From assembly GCA_017475745.1 (NCBI GenBank), contig JAFVEZ010000018.1, forward strand, positions 1 to 64,000: 64,000 bases of DNA. Direction: 5' to 3'. Each line of letters opens with the position of its first letter. Positions within the stretch are counted from its first letter, which is position 1. The translations under genes and the position numbers were made by a program. Of the stretch, positions 12,495-22,680 are shown piece after piece. The notes below the pieces were generated by a model. The model saw nothing but the letters and a program-made list of their open reading frames with translations. It made no database searches and was not told where the DNA came from. The DNA is from Selenomonadaceae bacterium. Its GTDB lineage: Bacteria > Bacillota > Negativicutes > Selenomonadales > Selenomonadaceae.

Positions 12495-12994
12495 TGATTC
12501 ACCTTTTGACTTGGTATATGTTTAACAATTTCATTTGATATGATTCCGATTATAACGCCGGTAAATACTCCGCAAATACCAAGCACTGTCAAATAGTTTA
12601 CAATTTGCCAACTGCTCATCACAAATACCGCGACAAGTATTTGACCGACATTGTGAAAAAAGCCACCCGCAGCGCTCACACCTATTATTGAAAACCTTTC
12701 ACTGCGTTTTACGATTATCATCGCTGCAAGACTTAACAGTCCACCGCTTAAGCTGAATATCAGAATTGACGGGCTGCCAATAAATATCGCAGACAATATG
12801 CTCCTCAAGGTCAATATCAATAATGTATCTACTTCGCTTGGCAAGATATATAGAGCGATAATGGTGATGATGTTCGACAGACCAAGCTTTGCACCTGGCG
12901 GCAAAATTGGCATTGGTATTAGACTTTCCAGTAGAAACATAGTCAAGGACATAGATATGAATATTGATATTGTAGTTAGTCGTCTTATTTTCAT
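12491..12994 (-). CDS. Gx transporter family / heptaprenyl diphosphate synthase component I-like membrane protein
   Basis: A 167-residue protein with about five membrane helices and the family block PPGAKLGLSNIITIIALY near the N-terminus, plus AAGGFFHNVGQI. The family is named after heptaprenyl diphosphate synthase component I but looks like an ECF-type S component; no component II or ECF module genes are next to it. It overlaps the YfhO gene upstream and holA downstream by four bases each, so translation is coupled. Membrane location is sure, the cargo is not. Confidence 0.82.
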   Translation of the reverse strand: MKIRRLTTISIFISMSLTMFLLESLIPMPILPPGAKLGLSNIITIIALYILPSEVDTLLILTLRSILSAIFIGSPSILIFSLSGGLLSLAAMIIVKRSERFSIIGVSAAGGFFHNVGQILVAVFVMSSWQIVNYLTVLGICGVFTGVIIGIISNEIVKHIPSQKVNQ

Positions 12995-15552
12995 TGTAAG
13001 TTACTTTTTGATATTTGTTTTTGTATTAACATGAGGAGGATTAAACTGATTATTGTTATTGACGCACCGAGTTTCAAGCCTGGCATTGAATATTCCATTT
13101 CAATTATATTGTCGCCAATCTTTAAAGTCAAGCCGATAAAACAGTCAAGGACAACCTCAACCGTAACAGGTTTGCCATTGATTTTAACATACCAGCCTTC
13201 GTAAGGAATGGTTGTGAACAGCTTTTCGCCTTCCTCAGCGGTGATCTGCATTTTGATATATTTATCTCCGAATTGAAGGAAGTTCACTGCACGTGATTGT
13301 GCTCTATCTCTTGCCGCGGATAGTGCTGCAAAGTCAACCATATAGAATTGAGGATTTAACTGTTCATTCACTTCTAGCTCTGTGGTAAAGTCAAAATGTA
13401 CGCTATCCTTTGCAGGTTGTGGAACATAGAAAACAGACGGACTGTTAAATCTTGAGAGAGTGTAGAGTCGTTTGTCATCAATGTTAAGTTTACCCTTATA
13501 ATCCACTTGAGTTGCCATATCGCCATAAATAGCACTGTGATTATCAACGCCAAACACCTCAAAAGTAAAGTGTCTATTATCAAGAGTAGTAACTTGACAA
13601 GGCAACTCCTTATAGACATCGACGCCAAACAATTCTTTGTAAATAGAATTGGTGTAAGTGAATGTATTGCCATCATATTTAATTGAAGACAAGTCAAAGT
13701 CATTACAGACAAAGGCAAAGGGTATGGCAAATTCATTCAGATAAGTACTTTTGCCATTGTGAACTCCAAGTTCTGGCATCAATGATAAGCCGACTATATC
13801 CTCATCAGAGAGAATATACTTAACACCCAAGAGTGAATCAGTCGGAAGAATTGGCAATCGGACTATACTCATACAGTCTGCCACTTCACGATAACCAAGA
13901 TGATCCAACAGAGCAAGCTGCGAACTGATCGGGCTGGAAGTATAGCTTGCAGGAGCAGAGTAATTATAGGCCAAATTTTCATTGAAATTAGCATTAAAAG
14001 CATCTGGATCAGTATTCTCCTCAAACGGTTCATAGTTCTTTGTCTGATTTATTCGGTATATTGAAGAGTCCTTCTGCTTGATATTATCTATCTGTTCACT
14101 TTGATGCTCAACATAATCTTTGTAATGATCAACATTGTGACAGGCGAAAAACTCTATATACTGCTTAGTGTTTGTGCCTAGACCAAAGATTATCATAATA
14201 GAAAGTACTGTTTTGCACAACTTGATAGAATTAGATTTAAGTTTAGGATACAGGCAGAAGAAAGCGGCTACTGCTGAGTACACCAAAAGTGAGCCGATTA
14301 CATTGTCGGCGGTGTTGAAGTGATCGGTGTCCCAATTCTGCAACGGTCTTTTAAAGTGTCTCCACAGAACCGCAACAGGATAAAGACTGAGCAAGAAGAT
14401 ATAGAGCTTGTGAGCTTGAAAACGCCACTGTGGCAACTTTGCATGATAGAGGAAGAAGAATGCTGCCAAATAAACCAACAGGAAGTGTGCAGGGAATGAG
14501 TACCTATACCAATAGGTGATAGGAGACTTTAGCAACGAAAACAAGAAGACCAGCGGTCGCCAGTAGAACATCAACCAGATAAAAATTACTGCAACAGCAC
14601 CGCCGATTAGCTGCCTTTTGCTGATGTTCTTTTGAAGGAAGAAGGCTATAAATCCGAATGTTACGAGATCACCTGTATAGAGGGCAACTTGATTAAAAGT
14701 ACTACGGTTACCCCAAGTCAAACCCTCGAAAATTGTCAAAACCTTAGTGTAGAGACTAGCATTTAGCCCGAACCATTCCGGCGAGCCTTTGCCTGCGGTG
14801 AGCGCTTCGAGTGTCGGCAGGAATATCACAGCACTTAAACCAACCGCCAAGGTTATACTCAACATCACCTTGCCAGTAAATCTTAACAAACTCTGCCAAC
14901 TCAACTTCAACTCACTAAAGAAAACATATTCCCAGACCGCGAACATTCCAGCAAACATCACAGCTATCAATCCGGTGTACCAGTTAAAGATGATCGCCAA
15001 TGCCATGGTTACAGTTAGAAAGACGATATTGTCGACAGTGCGGAGCTTATGCACGCCCAGCAACATCAGTGGCAACATGTAGACAGGATCAAGCCACATC
15101 AGATTGACCATTTGCTGAACGTTGTAATTCATTAAACCAAAACCAACTGACAGAAGAATTGTCACAAATGTGTCTAACTTGTGCTCAAATCGCTGTTCAA
15201 GGTAATAACTCATTGTAGCGGCTGATAAGCTTAATTTCAACACTACTAGTAAGTCGTAGAAGCTGTGCAGCTCCTCTTGAGGAAAGAAGACAATCAAGAT
15301 GTTCAGGGGTGAGAAGAGGTAGTAAGTCATAATCGCCCACATATTCCCGCCGAGACTTTTGTCAAAGGAAAAAGTAGCTGAGACACCGTCCAGGAAGAAG
15401 TGGCGCAAATAGGCGAAGAGGTCTATATATTGGATTTCACCATCACCGGCAACGAAACTCAAATTGCCGAAGGGTGCAAATTTTGACCACAGCATCAATC
15501 CAATGAGGAGTAGGACTGTTAATGTGAAAGAAGCGGCTATATTCCTAATCAT
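12991..15552 (-). CDS. YfhO family multi-pass membrane protein
   Basis: An 853-residue protein with about a dozen membrane helices in the first half and a large extracytoplasmic C-terminal part ending in one last helix. The GT-C-like block GFGLMNYNVQQMVNLMWLDP and AVIFLPTLEALTAGKGSP are typical of the YfhO family, linked in Gram-positive bacteria to glycosylation of lipoteichoic acid or other envelope polymers with lipid-linked sugars. Its role in a diderm cell is not established. It is translationally coupled on both sides (four-base ATGA overlaps), to a sugar-binding lipoprotein gene upstream and the Gx transporter gene downstream. Confidence 0.88.
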   Translation of the reverse strand: MIRNIAASFTLTVLLLIGLMLWSKFAPFGNLSFVAGDGEIQYIDLFAYLRHFFLDGVSATFSFDKSLGGNMWAIMTYYLFSPLNILIVFFPQEELHSFYDLLVVLKLSLSAATMSYYLEQRFEHKLDTFVTILLSVGFGLMNYNVQQMVNLMWLDPVYMLPLMLLGVHKLRTVDNIVFLTVTMALAIIFNWYTGLIAVMFAGMFAVWEYVFFSELKLSWQSLLRFTGKVMLSITLAVGLSAVIFLPTLEALTAGKGSPEWFGLNASLYTKVLTIFEGLTWGNRSTFNQVALYTGDLVTFGFIAFFLQKNISKRQLIGGAVAVIFIWLMFYWRPLVFLFSLLKSPITYWYRYSFPAHFLLVYLAAFFFLYHAKLPQWRFQAHKLYIFLLSLYPVAVLWRHFKRPLQNWDTDHFNTADNVIGSLLVYSAVAAFFCLYPKLKSNSIKLCKTVLSIMIIFGLGTNTKQYIEFFACHNVDHYKDYVEHQSEQIDNIKQKDSSIYRINQTKNYEPFEENTDPDAFNANFNENLAYNYSAPASYTSSPISSQLALLDHLGYREVADCMSIVRLPILPTDSLLGVKYILSDEDIVGLSLMPELGVHNGKSTYLNEFAIPFAFVCNDFDLSSIKYDGNTFTYTNSIYKELFGVDVYKELPCQVTTLDNRHFTFEVFGVDNHSAIYGDMATQVDYKGKLNIDDKRLYTLSRFNSPSVFYVPQPAKDSVHFDFTTELEVNEQLNPQFYMVDFAALSAARDRAQSRAVNFLQFGDKYIKMQITAEEGEKLFTTIPYEGWYVKINGKPVTVEVVLDCFIGLTLKIGDNIIEMEYSMPGLKLGASITIISLILLMLIQKQISKSNLQ

Positions 15553-18511: not shown

Positions 18512-18540
18512 TTGCACTATCCTCAATACAGCATTATAAT
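18512..18540 (+). promoter_or_regulatory. Sigma-A promoter for the LCP-phytase-like operon
   Basis: TTGCAC at 18512-18517, 17 bases, TATAAT at 18535-18540. Transcription from here supports translation from TTG 18571 and excludes an upstream in-frame ATG at 18469. Confidence 0.75.
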
Positions 18541-18570: not shown

Positions 18571-19983
18571 TTGGAAAACTCAACGACACGGCAGAGTCAA
18601 CCTAAGAGACAAAGGCGCATTTGGCCTGTTCTTCTGTTAATACTTTGCTTTCTCGGTTCGGCAGTTGCTGGTGCTATGTTCGCATCATCAAGCTTTGATA
18701 AGAAAACTAACCCTGAGAAAAAGATAGTAGAGATACTTGAGGAAGAAGGCTTAATCAAGGCTGAAGACAAGACTACTGTCATGATAATGGGCGTCGATGA
18801 GCGCTCTGATGATGTCGGACGTTCCGATACACTTATGATAGCAACTCTCGATCCTCATACCGACCACGCTGCTCTTCTGTCGATTCCTCGCGACACCCGT
18901 GTCAAGATTAAAGGCAGAGGTTATGACAAGATCAATGCAGCCTATGCCTACGGCGGTGAGAGACTCGCCGAGAGTACAGTTGAGTCCTTTCTCGGAATTG
19001 ACATTGATCACTACATCATCGTCAATACTAACTCCTTCGTTCGGTTGGTTGATGCCATAGGTGGAATCGACATAAATGTCGAGAAGCGTATGTATTACGA
19101 AGACCCTTGGGACGACAACGGCGGCCTTGTTATTGATATTTATCCGGGTTTGCAGCATATGGACGGCGAGAAGGCTGTAACCTATGTGCGCTACCGTGAC
19201 GAAGAAGGCGATATTGGCAGAGTTCGTCGTCAACAGGAATTTATGGCGGCTTGTATGGACAAACTCACGTCACCTTCCATTATACCAAAGATTCCTACAA
19301 TCATTAGTGAAATTATGGACGCCGTGCAAACGGATCTATCCTTCAGGCAGATTTTGGGACTTGCTGGTGCTTTGAAAGATGCACAGCAAAATGGTCTGGA
19401 CATGGAGATGGTACCGGGTAAACCTCTTTACATTGACGGTGTGAGTTATTGGATTCCCGATGTTGAGATGCTTAGGCTCTCCGTTGCAGACAGCTTGGGT
19501 ATTCATGTTGACCCGGCGCTTCGTGAGAGGTTTGAGCGTGCGGCAGGTGAATATAAAAACTCTATACCTTCCAATGCTGCTGATGTACCAGCGGGCGATA
19601 ATTCAATCGGCAGTGCTGTGAGGAATACTCGCGGACACATTAGAGAGCGCTCTTCTTACGATAATACCGATACCACTCGTCAATCCTATGATGTTGATGG
19701 CGATTATTTTGAAAACCGTTCCAGCATTAATGCAGATCGCAGCACTTCAAGCAATTCAACTTACAACCGTACTGATAGCACTACTGACGGCACATATCAA
19801 AGACGAAACAATCGCAACGATGGTTACACACGCCGAGAGAGTAGCGGCGTTGAAGATGACACATATCGTAGTGGCACGAGTTCTAACAGTCGTATGTCAA
19901 ATGATGATGTAAGTGTACCTTTTACCGATGATGATGATTATGCTCCGCCTTCTCGTTCTGACGGCGCCGGTAAGATGCGTTAA
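18571..19983 (+). CDS. LytR-CpsA-Psr (LCP) family protein with long polar tail
   Basis: A 470-residue membrane-anchored protein with one N-terminal helix (residues about 16-36) and an extracytoplasmic LCP domain: MIMGVDERSDDVGRSDTLMI, LSIPRDTRVKI, YDKINAAYAYGG and AVTYVRYRDEEGDIGRVRRQ. LCP enzymes transfer undecaprenyl-linked glycopolymers to peptidoglycan or similar acceptors. After about residue 330 there is a 140-residue tail rich in Ser, Thr, Asn, Arg and Asp that looks disordered. The start is TTG 18571 behind GAAGGTG, inside the transcript from the promoter at 18512. The phytase-like gene follows after 11 bases. Confidence 0.92.
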   Translation: MENSTTRQSQPKRQRRIWPVLLLILCFLGSAVAGAMFASSSFDKKTNPEKKIVEILEEEGLIKAEDKTTVMIMGVDERSDDVGRSDTLMIATLDPHTDHAALLSIPRDTRVKIKGRGYDKINAAYAYGGERLAESTVESFLGIDIDHYIIVNTNSFVRLVDAIGGIDINVEKRMYYEDPWDDNGGLVIDIYPGLQHMDGEKAVTYVRYRDEEGDIGRVRRQQEFMAACMDKLTSPSIIPKIPTIISEIMDAVQTDLSFRQILGLAGALKDAQQNGLDMEMVPGKPLYIDGVSYWIPDVEMLRLSVADSLGIHVDPALRERFERAAGEYKNSIPSNAADVPAGDNSIGSAVRNTRGHIRERSSYDNTDTTRQSYDVDGDYFENRSSINADRSTSSNSTYNRTDSTTDGTYQRRNNRNDGYTRRESSGVEDDTYRSGTSSNSRMSNDDVSVPFTDDDDYAPPSRSDGAGKMR

Positions 19984-19994
19984 GAGGTGCAACT

Positions 19995-20852
19995 GTGATA
20001 AGATACTTAAACTTTATATCAATACTGATATTTGCGATTGCAGTGATGACTTCAACAGCAGAAGCAGTTTGGCGACTGGATGGTTTGGATTTAACACAAG
20101 TTCGTAACTTCCGCGTCACTTCTTCAACAACTTCTGCAAGTGCCCAGCCTTCCCTAAAGAGTTTGCCTTTGCTCTATGATGTCCTCAAGAGTGAGACTCT
20201 CTCAAAGACGCCGATTTACATTGTCGATCTTCGCCAAGAGTCTCATGGCTTTGCGAACGGTGTACCGGTCAGTTGGTATGAGGAACACAATCACGCAAAC
20301 TTTGGTAAATCTGTGAATGAGATTGACCAAGACGAAGTCGATAAACTCAAATCAATCCTCGGCAAGCAGACAGAGTTCCTACCGCTTGGTAAGCATGATG
20401 AAGCGGCGTTTTCAAAATTGACTATGCTGATTGATAATGTGCAGAATGAACGGCACGCAGCAGAAAGTACAGGATTTAAATATATTCGTTTTGCTGCGGC
20501 TGATATGGTATTTCCCGATCCTGCTGTAGTTGATGATTTTATCAAATTCTACCTCTCATTGCCGCAAAAGCATTGGTTACACTTTCACTGTCATGCCGGT
20601 CACGGTCGTACTACTACCTTCTTAGTGTTTTATGACATCTTGACTTATCCTGATCTGTCGCTTGAGGAGATAGTACAGCGGCAACATTCACTTGGTGGAT
20701 CAGATTTACTAGCTGTCGGCGGCGGTGATGATTGGTATTCCGAAAAGAATCGCGAACGAGCGGAGAAGTTACGTCAATTCTATAGATATGTCAAAGAAGA
20801 AAGAGCATCAAACTTTACGATCAGTTGGAATGACTGGTTGAAAGATAAATAG
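19995..20852 (+). CDS. PTP-like cysteine phytase family phosphatase, secreted
   Basis: A 285-residue protein with a signal peptide (cleavage near residue 24, after AEA). The C-terminal half aligns by eye with Selenomonas/Mitsuokella PhyA: the general-acid Asp region AAADMVFPDP, then WLHFHCHAGHGRTTTF with nucleophile C199 and R205, then the RQHSLGG block, and a final FYRYVKEERA...W-x-DWL. Family enzymes remove phosphates from inositol hexakisphosphate with a cysteine-phosphate intermediate. The P-loop here is HCHAGHGR rather than the HCEAGVGR I know from Selenomonas PhyA, so two loop residues are His. Start is GTG 19995 with AGAGGTG. Operon with the LCP gene suggests an envelope role; phytate or another inositol phosphate is equally possible. 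Confidence 0.88.
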   Translation: MIRYLNFISILIFAIAVMTSTAEAVWRLDGLDLTQVRNFRVTSSTTSASAQPSLKSLPLLYDVLKSETLSKTPIYIVDLRQESHGFANGVPVSWYEEHNHANFGKSVNEIDQDEVDKLKSILGKQTEFLPLGKHDEAAFSKLTMLIDNVQNERHAAESTGFKYIRFAAADMVFPDPAVVDDFIKFYLSLPQKHWLHFHCHAGHGRTTTFLVFYDILTYPDLSLEEIVQRQHSLGGSDLLAVGGGDDWYSEKNRERAEKLRQFYRYVKEERASNFTISWNDWLKDK

Positions 20853-20949: not shown

Positions 20950-22680
20950 ATGGCGAAAGCAGCAAAGAAATCTAAAAAAAAAGTAAAACTTCAAGGTAGT
21001 GTATCAAGATTAAAGACTTTGATATTGACTGATACTTCCGAAAAGGCACGGACTATCAAGAAACTCATTAGCCGTCAATATGTGGTGATGTCATCTGAAG
21101 GGTTCCTTCGTGATCTTCCAAAAACTCAGTTGGGAATAGACCCTGACAATCACTTTGAACCGCGATATATAACCGTACGCGGCAAGGGCAAACTATTAGA
21201 ACAAATTCGCAAAGAAACTATAACGGCGCGACGCATCTATGCTATTACCGATGAGGACCCACAAGGCGAGATGATTGCTCTTCACTACTGTCAACTCTTC
21301 GGTATAAATTCAAGTTCTAACTTCCGTATTGTCCTAAATGAAATCACAAAGGACAGTATTAAGGAAGGCTTAAAAAATGCCCGTGCTGTTGATATGAAGT
21401 TAATCAGAACTTATGAAGCACAAAGAGCTGTTAATCGCCTGTTCACATATAATCTGCACCCGATCCTCTGGAATAAAATATACCGTGGTGTTTCGGTAAA
21501 TCTCTCTCAGGCAGTTATCTTGCGAATGATCTGTGAGCAGGAGAAAAAACCGCAGCCATTCTCCGAAGAAGTGACTGTCGATAAGGAAAACGTATTAAAC
21601 TGGAAGAGTTTGCAACTTGCGGCAGCCAAAGAGCTAAACTTTCATGTCGGTACTACTTCAATAATAGCTAGACAATTCTACGAAGGAATGAAGATAGGAA
21701 ATACTTGCACCGGATTGATTACTTGGTACAAGTCTTCTAAAATCATACCTGCTGATGTTCAATACAGTCCTGAGACTGTGAAGGATTATTTGCCTGCTAA
21801 TCATTTCAAACTTTACAGCTTGATATGGCAGCACTTTCACGGTGAACTATCTGAAATTAAATCATCAAAGTCAGTGGAACCAATGATTCGATATAATGAC
21901 TATCTGTTAATGACAACCTTGGAGCAGCGAGGACTGCCTTGGGAAGATAACTTTTCCACTGCCGTCTGTTCTCTCCTCAAACGTAGATATATTGAGTTGA
22001 CAAACACTGGCTACAAGCCTACAAAACTTGGTTTGGAAGTAATGTCTGTCTTAAGGGATCACTTCGCAACCATTATCAGCGATAAGTTTATCAAGAAGAT
22101 ACATGAACAGTTAAGCTCTGCAGAAGATAAGATGAGTGCGGTTGAAGTATTTTGGAAGCAATTTAACAATACTTTAACGAAGGCGCTTGACAAAATTGGA
22201 GACGTAACGCCTAAAGAGCCGCCGGTACTTGAGAGTAACGAGGTCTGTGATAAATGCGGCAAGAAGATGGTCATTCGATACAGTCGTTATGGACAGTTTT
22301 TGGCGTGTTCCGGATATCCTGAATGTAAGAATACTAAGCCATATCTTGAGTATATTGATAATGAGGGCTGCCGTTGTCCGAAGTGTGGCGGGCGCTTGAC
22401 GAGACGTAGGTGGAATAAGGGTAAGATATTCTACAGTTGTGAGAACTATCCGGAATGTAGATTCAGCACTTGGGACGAGCCGCAGAGCAAGTTCTGTGAT
22501 ATCTGCGGAGGAGCGCTATTCCTTCACCGCTTCAAAGATCGCGCGCCAATGTTGTACTGTGGCAATGATGATTGCTCATCACGTCGAGATCACCCAATCA
22601 ACAAAATTCTTGAGAATCAACGCATTAAACGTGAAGTTAAGGCAAATAGGGCATCAAAAAAAGTGGAGGCGACACATTGA
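20950..22680 (+). CDS. Degenerate DNA topoisomerase I homologue, probably catalytically inactive
   Basis: An uninterrupted 576-residue frame with AGGAGA before the ATG. Its backbone aligns with bacterial TopA ([43 protein letters not shown], three C-terminal zinc ribbons). It is about 115 residues shorter than the usual 690, and the active-site motifs are changed. The first-motif Glu (VESPAK) is Asp28. The Toprim DxDxE is D101-E-D103-P-Q105. SAGRVQS reads SVNLSQA. The catalytic Tyr (GLITYMRT) is Trp259, with Tyr260 one position later. HEAIRP is absent and GRPSTY is lost. Zinc ribbons at 433-459, 475-503 and 516-542 keep their Cys pairs. The stop overlaps the trmFO start, the normal place of topA. 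It may bind nucleic acid without relaxing DNA; a working TopA should be elsewhere in the genome. Confidence 0.85.

Follow-up and report, generated by a model that had tools for sequence, protein, structure and literature searches.

Does a secreted homologue of the PTP-like phytases, encoded immediately downstream of an LCP (LytR-CpsA-Psr) glycopolymer transferase, still act on phytate, or has it been turned toward the cell envelope? This question is raised by a gene pair in the 64,000-nt stretch of Selenomonadaceae DNA analysed here (the window; positions 1 to 64,000 of contig JAFVEZ010000018.1). The genome that contains it is fragmented (1.6 Mb, 81% complete), and its host belongs to Quinella or to the GTDB counterpart of that genus. 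Quinella are uncultured diderm rumen bacteria (PMC9585023).

Table 1. Coordinates of the features of the LCP-PTP locus in the window.
Feature	Position	Strand	Evidence
Promoter-like TTGCAC-17 nt-TATAAT 5' of the LCP gene (putative)	18512..18540	+	sequence read
LCP (LytR-CpsA-Psr) glycopolymer transferase gene, 470 aa, TTG start	18571..19983	+	PF03816, 1.1e-46
Intergenic gap of 11 bp, LCP gene to PTP gene	19984..19994	+	sequence
Likely ribosome-binding site AAGAGGTG, overlapping the LCP gene end	at gap 19984..19994	+	
Secreted PTP-like phytase homologue, 285 aa, GTG start, non-DH subfamily	19995..20852	+	PF14566, 1.2e-26
Likely signal peptide, residues 1-24 (...STAEA/VWRLDG)	19995..20066	+	read by eye; helix 3-17 in the model
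General-acid loop A168-A169-D170-M171-V172-F173-P174	20496..20516	+	alignment
P-loop H198-C199-H200-A201-G202-H203-G204-R205-T206	20586..20612	+	sequence, alignment
Segment W247-R255: PhyA K305 to Tyr, Y309 to Asn, K312 to Arg	20733..20759	+	alignment with S. ruminantium PhyA

The two genes are closely apposed (Table 1), and the 11-base spacing given in a preliminary description of this DNA is borne out. The TTG start of the LCP gene is supported by the sister species G007, where the LCP gene starts with the same residues. The same description had proposed a shared promoter. A promoter-like element does precede the LCP gene, and a scan of the window found no terminator-like site on the + strand between the two genes; however, the first hexamer of the element falls under the threshold of the promoter scan. 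Judging from the sequence, one promoter common to the LCP and PTP genes is plausible. Elsewhere in the window, a YfhO membrane protein is encoded at 12991-15552 on the - strand (PF09586, 7.5e-110), and a TopA-like protein of 576 aa at 20950-22680 on the + strand. The latter has Toprim and zinc ribbons, with a partial topoisomerase domain match only. Its active-site-like motif, GLITWYKSS, has Trp at the position where the TopA consensus has Tyr. The genome also encodes a separate topoisomerase I of normal length, and short TopA-like copies similar to that of the window occur in G007 (with Trp), G130 (Tyr kept) and G017.

By profile and by fold, the window PTP belongs with the phytases. It scores above the cut-off of the Pfam PTPlike_phytase profile and carries the HCxxGxGRT P-loop. 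Its predicted model (mean pLDDT 87.4) matches the Selenomonas and Mitsuokella phytases with Z of about 33 over 262-281 residues, including the phytase insertion, against Z of about 14 for other PTPs. An identity with the XopH effector was rejected (120 bits for a cut-off of 500), the likeness being that of a shared family. The HCHAGHGR loop and the general acid Asp170 that had been noted earlier hold in the alignment with Selenomonas ruminantium PhyA, in which Asp170 falls opposite the general acid D223. Likewise, a signal peptide remains likely, as an N-terminal hydrophobic segment followed by AEA/VW is recognised by eye. C199, D170 and R205 are unchanged across 21 relatives. Moreover, dN/dS is 0.04 and 0.18 where estimable, dS being near or at saturation, and such low values indicate a functional protein. 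Since these relatives all keep the Cys, Arg and Asp needed for the two-step PTP mechanism, and dN/dS is low, the window PTP is likely an active phosphatase.

These observations make it very improbable that the PTP is a remnant with lowered activity, on its way to being lost in the lineage of the window. Such a view could draw on the G007 assembly, where a 2-base gap breaks the PTP frame soon after the loop, and on the 11 of 66 Quinella genomes that gave no PTP match (the other 55, that of the window included, gave one). However, past the gap in G007, coding goes on in the other frame with high identity. As the later codons are still alike, a MAG assembly error and a recent change are both possible. 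The absences may similarly reflect incomplete MAGs.

The preliminary description had laid emphasis on the two histidines of the P-loop, on the grounds that Glu follows the nucleophilic Cys in characterised phytases. This is true of S. ruminantium PhyA but is no general rule. The Mitsuokella tandem phytase repeats have HCYAGMGR and HCQAGAGR, with Tyr and Gln after Cys, and two basic residues stand in the loop of Bdellovibrio Bd1204 (HCRAGKGR), an enzyme nonetheless strictly specific for InsP6 (PMC3981807). It had also been proposed to look by alignment for a clade of HCHAGHGR variants tied to LCP genes; the alignment does not delineate one. HCHAGHGR is found in 32 of 105 sequences, 30 of which belong to the 82-member non-DH branch described below and two of which have a classical D-H general-acid loop. 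A further 32 of the 82 branch members carry HCQAGHGR, which makes HC[H/Q]AGHGR the standard loop in this Selenomonadaceae subfamily (62/82). The residue after Cys switched between His and another state at least 16 times on the tree, inside the non-DH branch, which rules out HCHAGHGR as a diagnostic clade. In addition, the LCP-linked G007 has HCQAGHGR. In view of these changes and of the Gln in G007, the position after Cys is labile rather than an LCP-linked innovation, and the two histidines of the window PTP are ordinary for their branch.

The stronger signal lies outside the preliminary description. It is carried by residue losses that extend over a whole subfamily and by a fusion with a wall gene in a sister genus, so that the branch is more interesting than the loop. 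Among the motifs given for cysteine phytases is a D-H general-acid loop (PMC12406696). The window PTP lacks it, the general acid being followed by Met171 and not by His (D170-M171), a feature on which the preliminary description was silent. Residues were counted in 105 sequences, 82 from the non-DH branch and 23 of the classical type. The classical-type sequences have His (19) or Tyr (4) after the general acid; the non-DH ones have Met (61), Gln (11), Arg (5), Gly (3) or Lys (2). In all 82, PhyA His224 is replaced and Asn is found at Asp153, and the equivalents of the contact residues K301, K305 and Y309 are mostly lost. In a quick tree from which the nine trait columns had been removed, a single branch sets the 82 sequences apart from the others (SH-aLRT 84). 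Its members come mainly from the Selenomonadaceae, a family in which 25 of 30 genera have a PTP match. A likely member with D-M, HCHAGHGR and a lipoprotein-like leader occurs in another family of the class (G260). The best reading of these sequences is that the non-DH subfamily derived from phytases and split from the classical ones.

This raises the question of whether the enzyme has kept its substrate. It may still be an inositol-phosphate phosphatase, a phytase or a lower-InsP enzyme with a rearranged pocket, taking phosphate from the plant phytate of the rumen. The loss of D-H, a cysteine-phytase motif (PMC12406696), in 82 of 82 subfamily members stands against this. In the window PTP, the residues at PhyA positions 189, 299, 301, 305, 309 and 312 are E, G, G, Y, N and R, respectively, the one matched to 189 hinging on the alignment of a variable region. 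Among the substrate residues of PhyAsr (PMC3981807), K189, K299 and K301 are replaced, whereas R57 and R68 have retained equivalents, recognised by a match of the WR and RNFR motifs. These two equivalents, together with the homology to phytases and the fold, favour the inositol-phosphate role. Bd1204 provides a precedent. It lacks PhyAsr R57, R68, K83, K189, K299 and K301, and yet strictly prefers InsP6 (PMC3981807). The basic contacts of PhyAsr are thus not all required, and, with a basic loop and a reduced contact set coexisting with strict InsP6 activity in Bd1204, contact loss cannot be read as a loss of that activity. A rumen host would also suit this role, and nearly all Quinella genomes searched have a single PTP match, with no second, classical one. 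Overall, a retained inositol-phosphate role is a serious possibility, if one with less than an even chance.

The partner gene offers a second line of evidence. The LCP protein has an N-terminal membrane segment and a low-complexity tail rich in Ser, Asn, Asp and Arg. It passes the cut-offs of the LytR_cpsA_psr and TIGR00350 profiles. Its nearest solved structures are TagU/TagV (2e-35 over residues 65-301), and it misses the TagU equivalog cut-off (175.6 versus 441 bits). In BLAST searches against all ORFs of the fetched PTP loci, an LCP gene was found near a PTP gene only in the window genome and in G007, G130 and G209. The window's clade has four members (SH-aLRT 99), and LCP is directly upstream of PTP in three of them, with gaps of 11 bp in the window and of about 19 bp and at most 14 bp in the other two, G007 and G130; in the fourth, G115, the two genes are on separate contigs. 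In G209, LCP is three genes upstream of PTP. As the genes flanking the pair differ on both sides among the three species, it has apparently survived rearrangement of its surroundings as a unit. LCP linkage in relatives is therefore real in G007 and G130 but narrow, being confined to one small clade and not seen in G115. Beyond this clade, no LCP gene adjoins PTP at the other Quinella loci examined. A genus-wide linkage was rejected, as LCP and PTP are apart in most species examined. In G007, a homologue of the window YfhO gene lies directly downstream of the pair. In other fetched Quinella loci, the gene after LCP belongs to the YrbL family (PF10707) or is of another kind, but is not PTP; the YrbL-family arrangement is seen at L128, L129, L130, L131 and L136, with a small membrane protein in some. 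A text search of the paper collection consulted returned no paper on LCP together with Negativicutes, nor on PTP-like phytase together with peptidoglycan.

The wider gene-context argument combines neighbour counts with a fusion. In all three species of the sister genus g50 (G208, G209, G210), the PTP continues into a C-terminal region, giving proteins of 695-710 aa. In the two scanned with Pfam (G208 and G209), this region consists of Glucosaminidase (PF01832) and TPR repeats. Moreover, an amidase gene lies 13-25 bp downstream of the fusion in G209 and G210 (Amidase_2 verified by Pfam in G209, the G210 gene being assigned by the same cluster). A YkuD gene is directly upstream of PTP in G036, and in G120 PTP is preceded at 11 bp by an SLT transglycosylase gene. 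The N-terminal domain that seemed to be fused to PTP in G207 was dismissed as an open-frame artefact. The wall-gene links are suggestive of a function. However, since many non-DH loci adjoin housekeeping genes (named by eye: PriA, ComEC, MiaA, SecA, RsmE), the wall neighbours may be partly due to chance. Such varied neighbours, many of them housekeeping, would also fit a broad, low-specificity secreted acid phosphatase used for phosphate scavenging, with LCP and wall genes as incidental neighbours; low activity and broad specificity are the traits under which the Mitsuokella D1 repeat has been discussed (PMC3981807). This scavenging role is nevertheless unlikely, in view of the domain fusion in the sister genus and of the LCP-PTP pair retained despite changed flanks.

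In Quinella, the commonest context is a PTP gene followed by genes for a secreted transglutaminase-like protein (26 genomes) and a PTS IIBC permease (32 genomes), which is not clearly a wall context. The three genes recur as a cluster in most of the genus, L035:10149-12128 being one example, and many species show a 4-bp overlap between the PTP stop and the start of the transglutaminase-like gene. In the window genome, the PTS permease is encoded elsewhere (C18) and the transglutaminase-like match is weak. A MurNAc specificity of the permease was not retained: its best NCBIfam match is MurNAc IIBC, at 291 bits for a cut-off of 516. In addition, the window genome, incomplete at 81%, gave no MurQ match that exceeded the cut-off. 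By contrast, a classical-type locus in G059 encodes a beta-propeller phytase (PF02333, 2e-149) alongside three PTP phytases. This locus (L065:5814-11221), from another Negativicutes family, is likely a phytate-use island. It also encodes a secreted protein without Pfam match, homologues of which lie near classical-type PTPs in G193, G108, G195 and G203. At the subfamily loci looked at, no second phytase accompanies the PTP. This difference from G059, like the glucosaminidase fusion, argues against the inositol-phosphate role.

LCP enzymes attach glycopolymers to muramic acid by way of a phosphate, a linkage that makes wall phosphate attractive as a substrate. Given the observed fold, subfamily membership, residue changes and several gene-context ties to the wall, it can be proposed, tentatively and with a chance still short of even, that the subfamily PTP is an envelope-side phosphatase acting on a cell-envelope phosphomonoester and not mainly a phytase. 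We place this slightly ahead of a retained inositol-phosphate role. The protein would be secreted with an apparently intact core, in which Cys199 would serve as nucleophile along with Arg205 and the general acid Asp170. After the split from classical phytases and the loss of the general-acid-loop His, of Asp153 and of most K301/K305/Y309 contacts, it would remove phosphate from an envelope phosphomonoester in the periplasm or outer envelope. Candidate substrates include a phosphate on muramic acid, or one on a glycopolymer of the type that LCP enzymes link to peptidoglycan; in the window's clade, the PTP gene is probably co-transcribed with the LCP gene. The envelope substrate toward which the preliminary description had pointed thus gains from the glucosaminidase fusion and the adjacent amidase of the sister genus, while we infer the substrate itself. 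A bolder proposal, to which we give less than an even chance, is that a Selenomonadaceae-wide branch turned from phytate degradation to phosphate trimming on peptidoglycan or LCP-linked glycopolymers, with the residue losses as its signature.

Non-DH proteins match the phytase family and are easily counted as phytases in rumen surveys. If the cell wall is where the branch acts, the share of Quinella and other rumen bacteria in phytate breakdown is overestimated by such counts. In that case, the poorly understood role of LCP proteins in diderm Firmicutes would also gain a testable enzyme partner.

Among known systems, the closest are S. ruminantium PhyA (1u24, 3mmj) and the M. multacida tandem phytase (3f41), both at Z of about 33, with identities of 42% and 35-36%, respectively, over aligned residues. 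Like them, the window PTP has HCxxGxGRT, an Asp general acid and an N-terminal WR..RNFR; unlike them, it has D-M instead of D-H, Asn instead of Asp153, two His in the loop, and replacements at K189, K301, K305 and Y309. With Bd1204 (4nx8), it shares two basic loop residues (H and H versus R and K), a reduced InsP6 contact set and a signal peptide. However, Bd1204 keeps D-H, is a strict InsP6 phytase (PMC3981807) and has a lower structural score to the window model (Z 28.7). Pseudomonas MupP, a MurNAc-6-phosphate phosphatase of peptidoglycan recycling (PMC5371407), is a comparison of function only, with no likeness in sequence or fold implied. Finally, the upstream gene resembles TagT/TagU/TagV in encoding an LCP glycopolymer transferase (domain match 2e-35), and differs from them in its long low-complexity tail and in its diderm host (PMC9585023).
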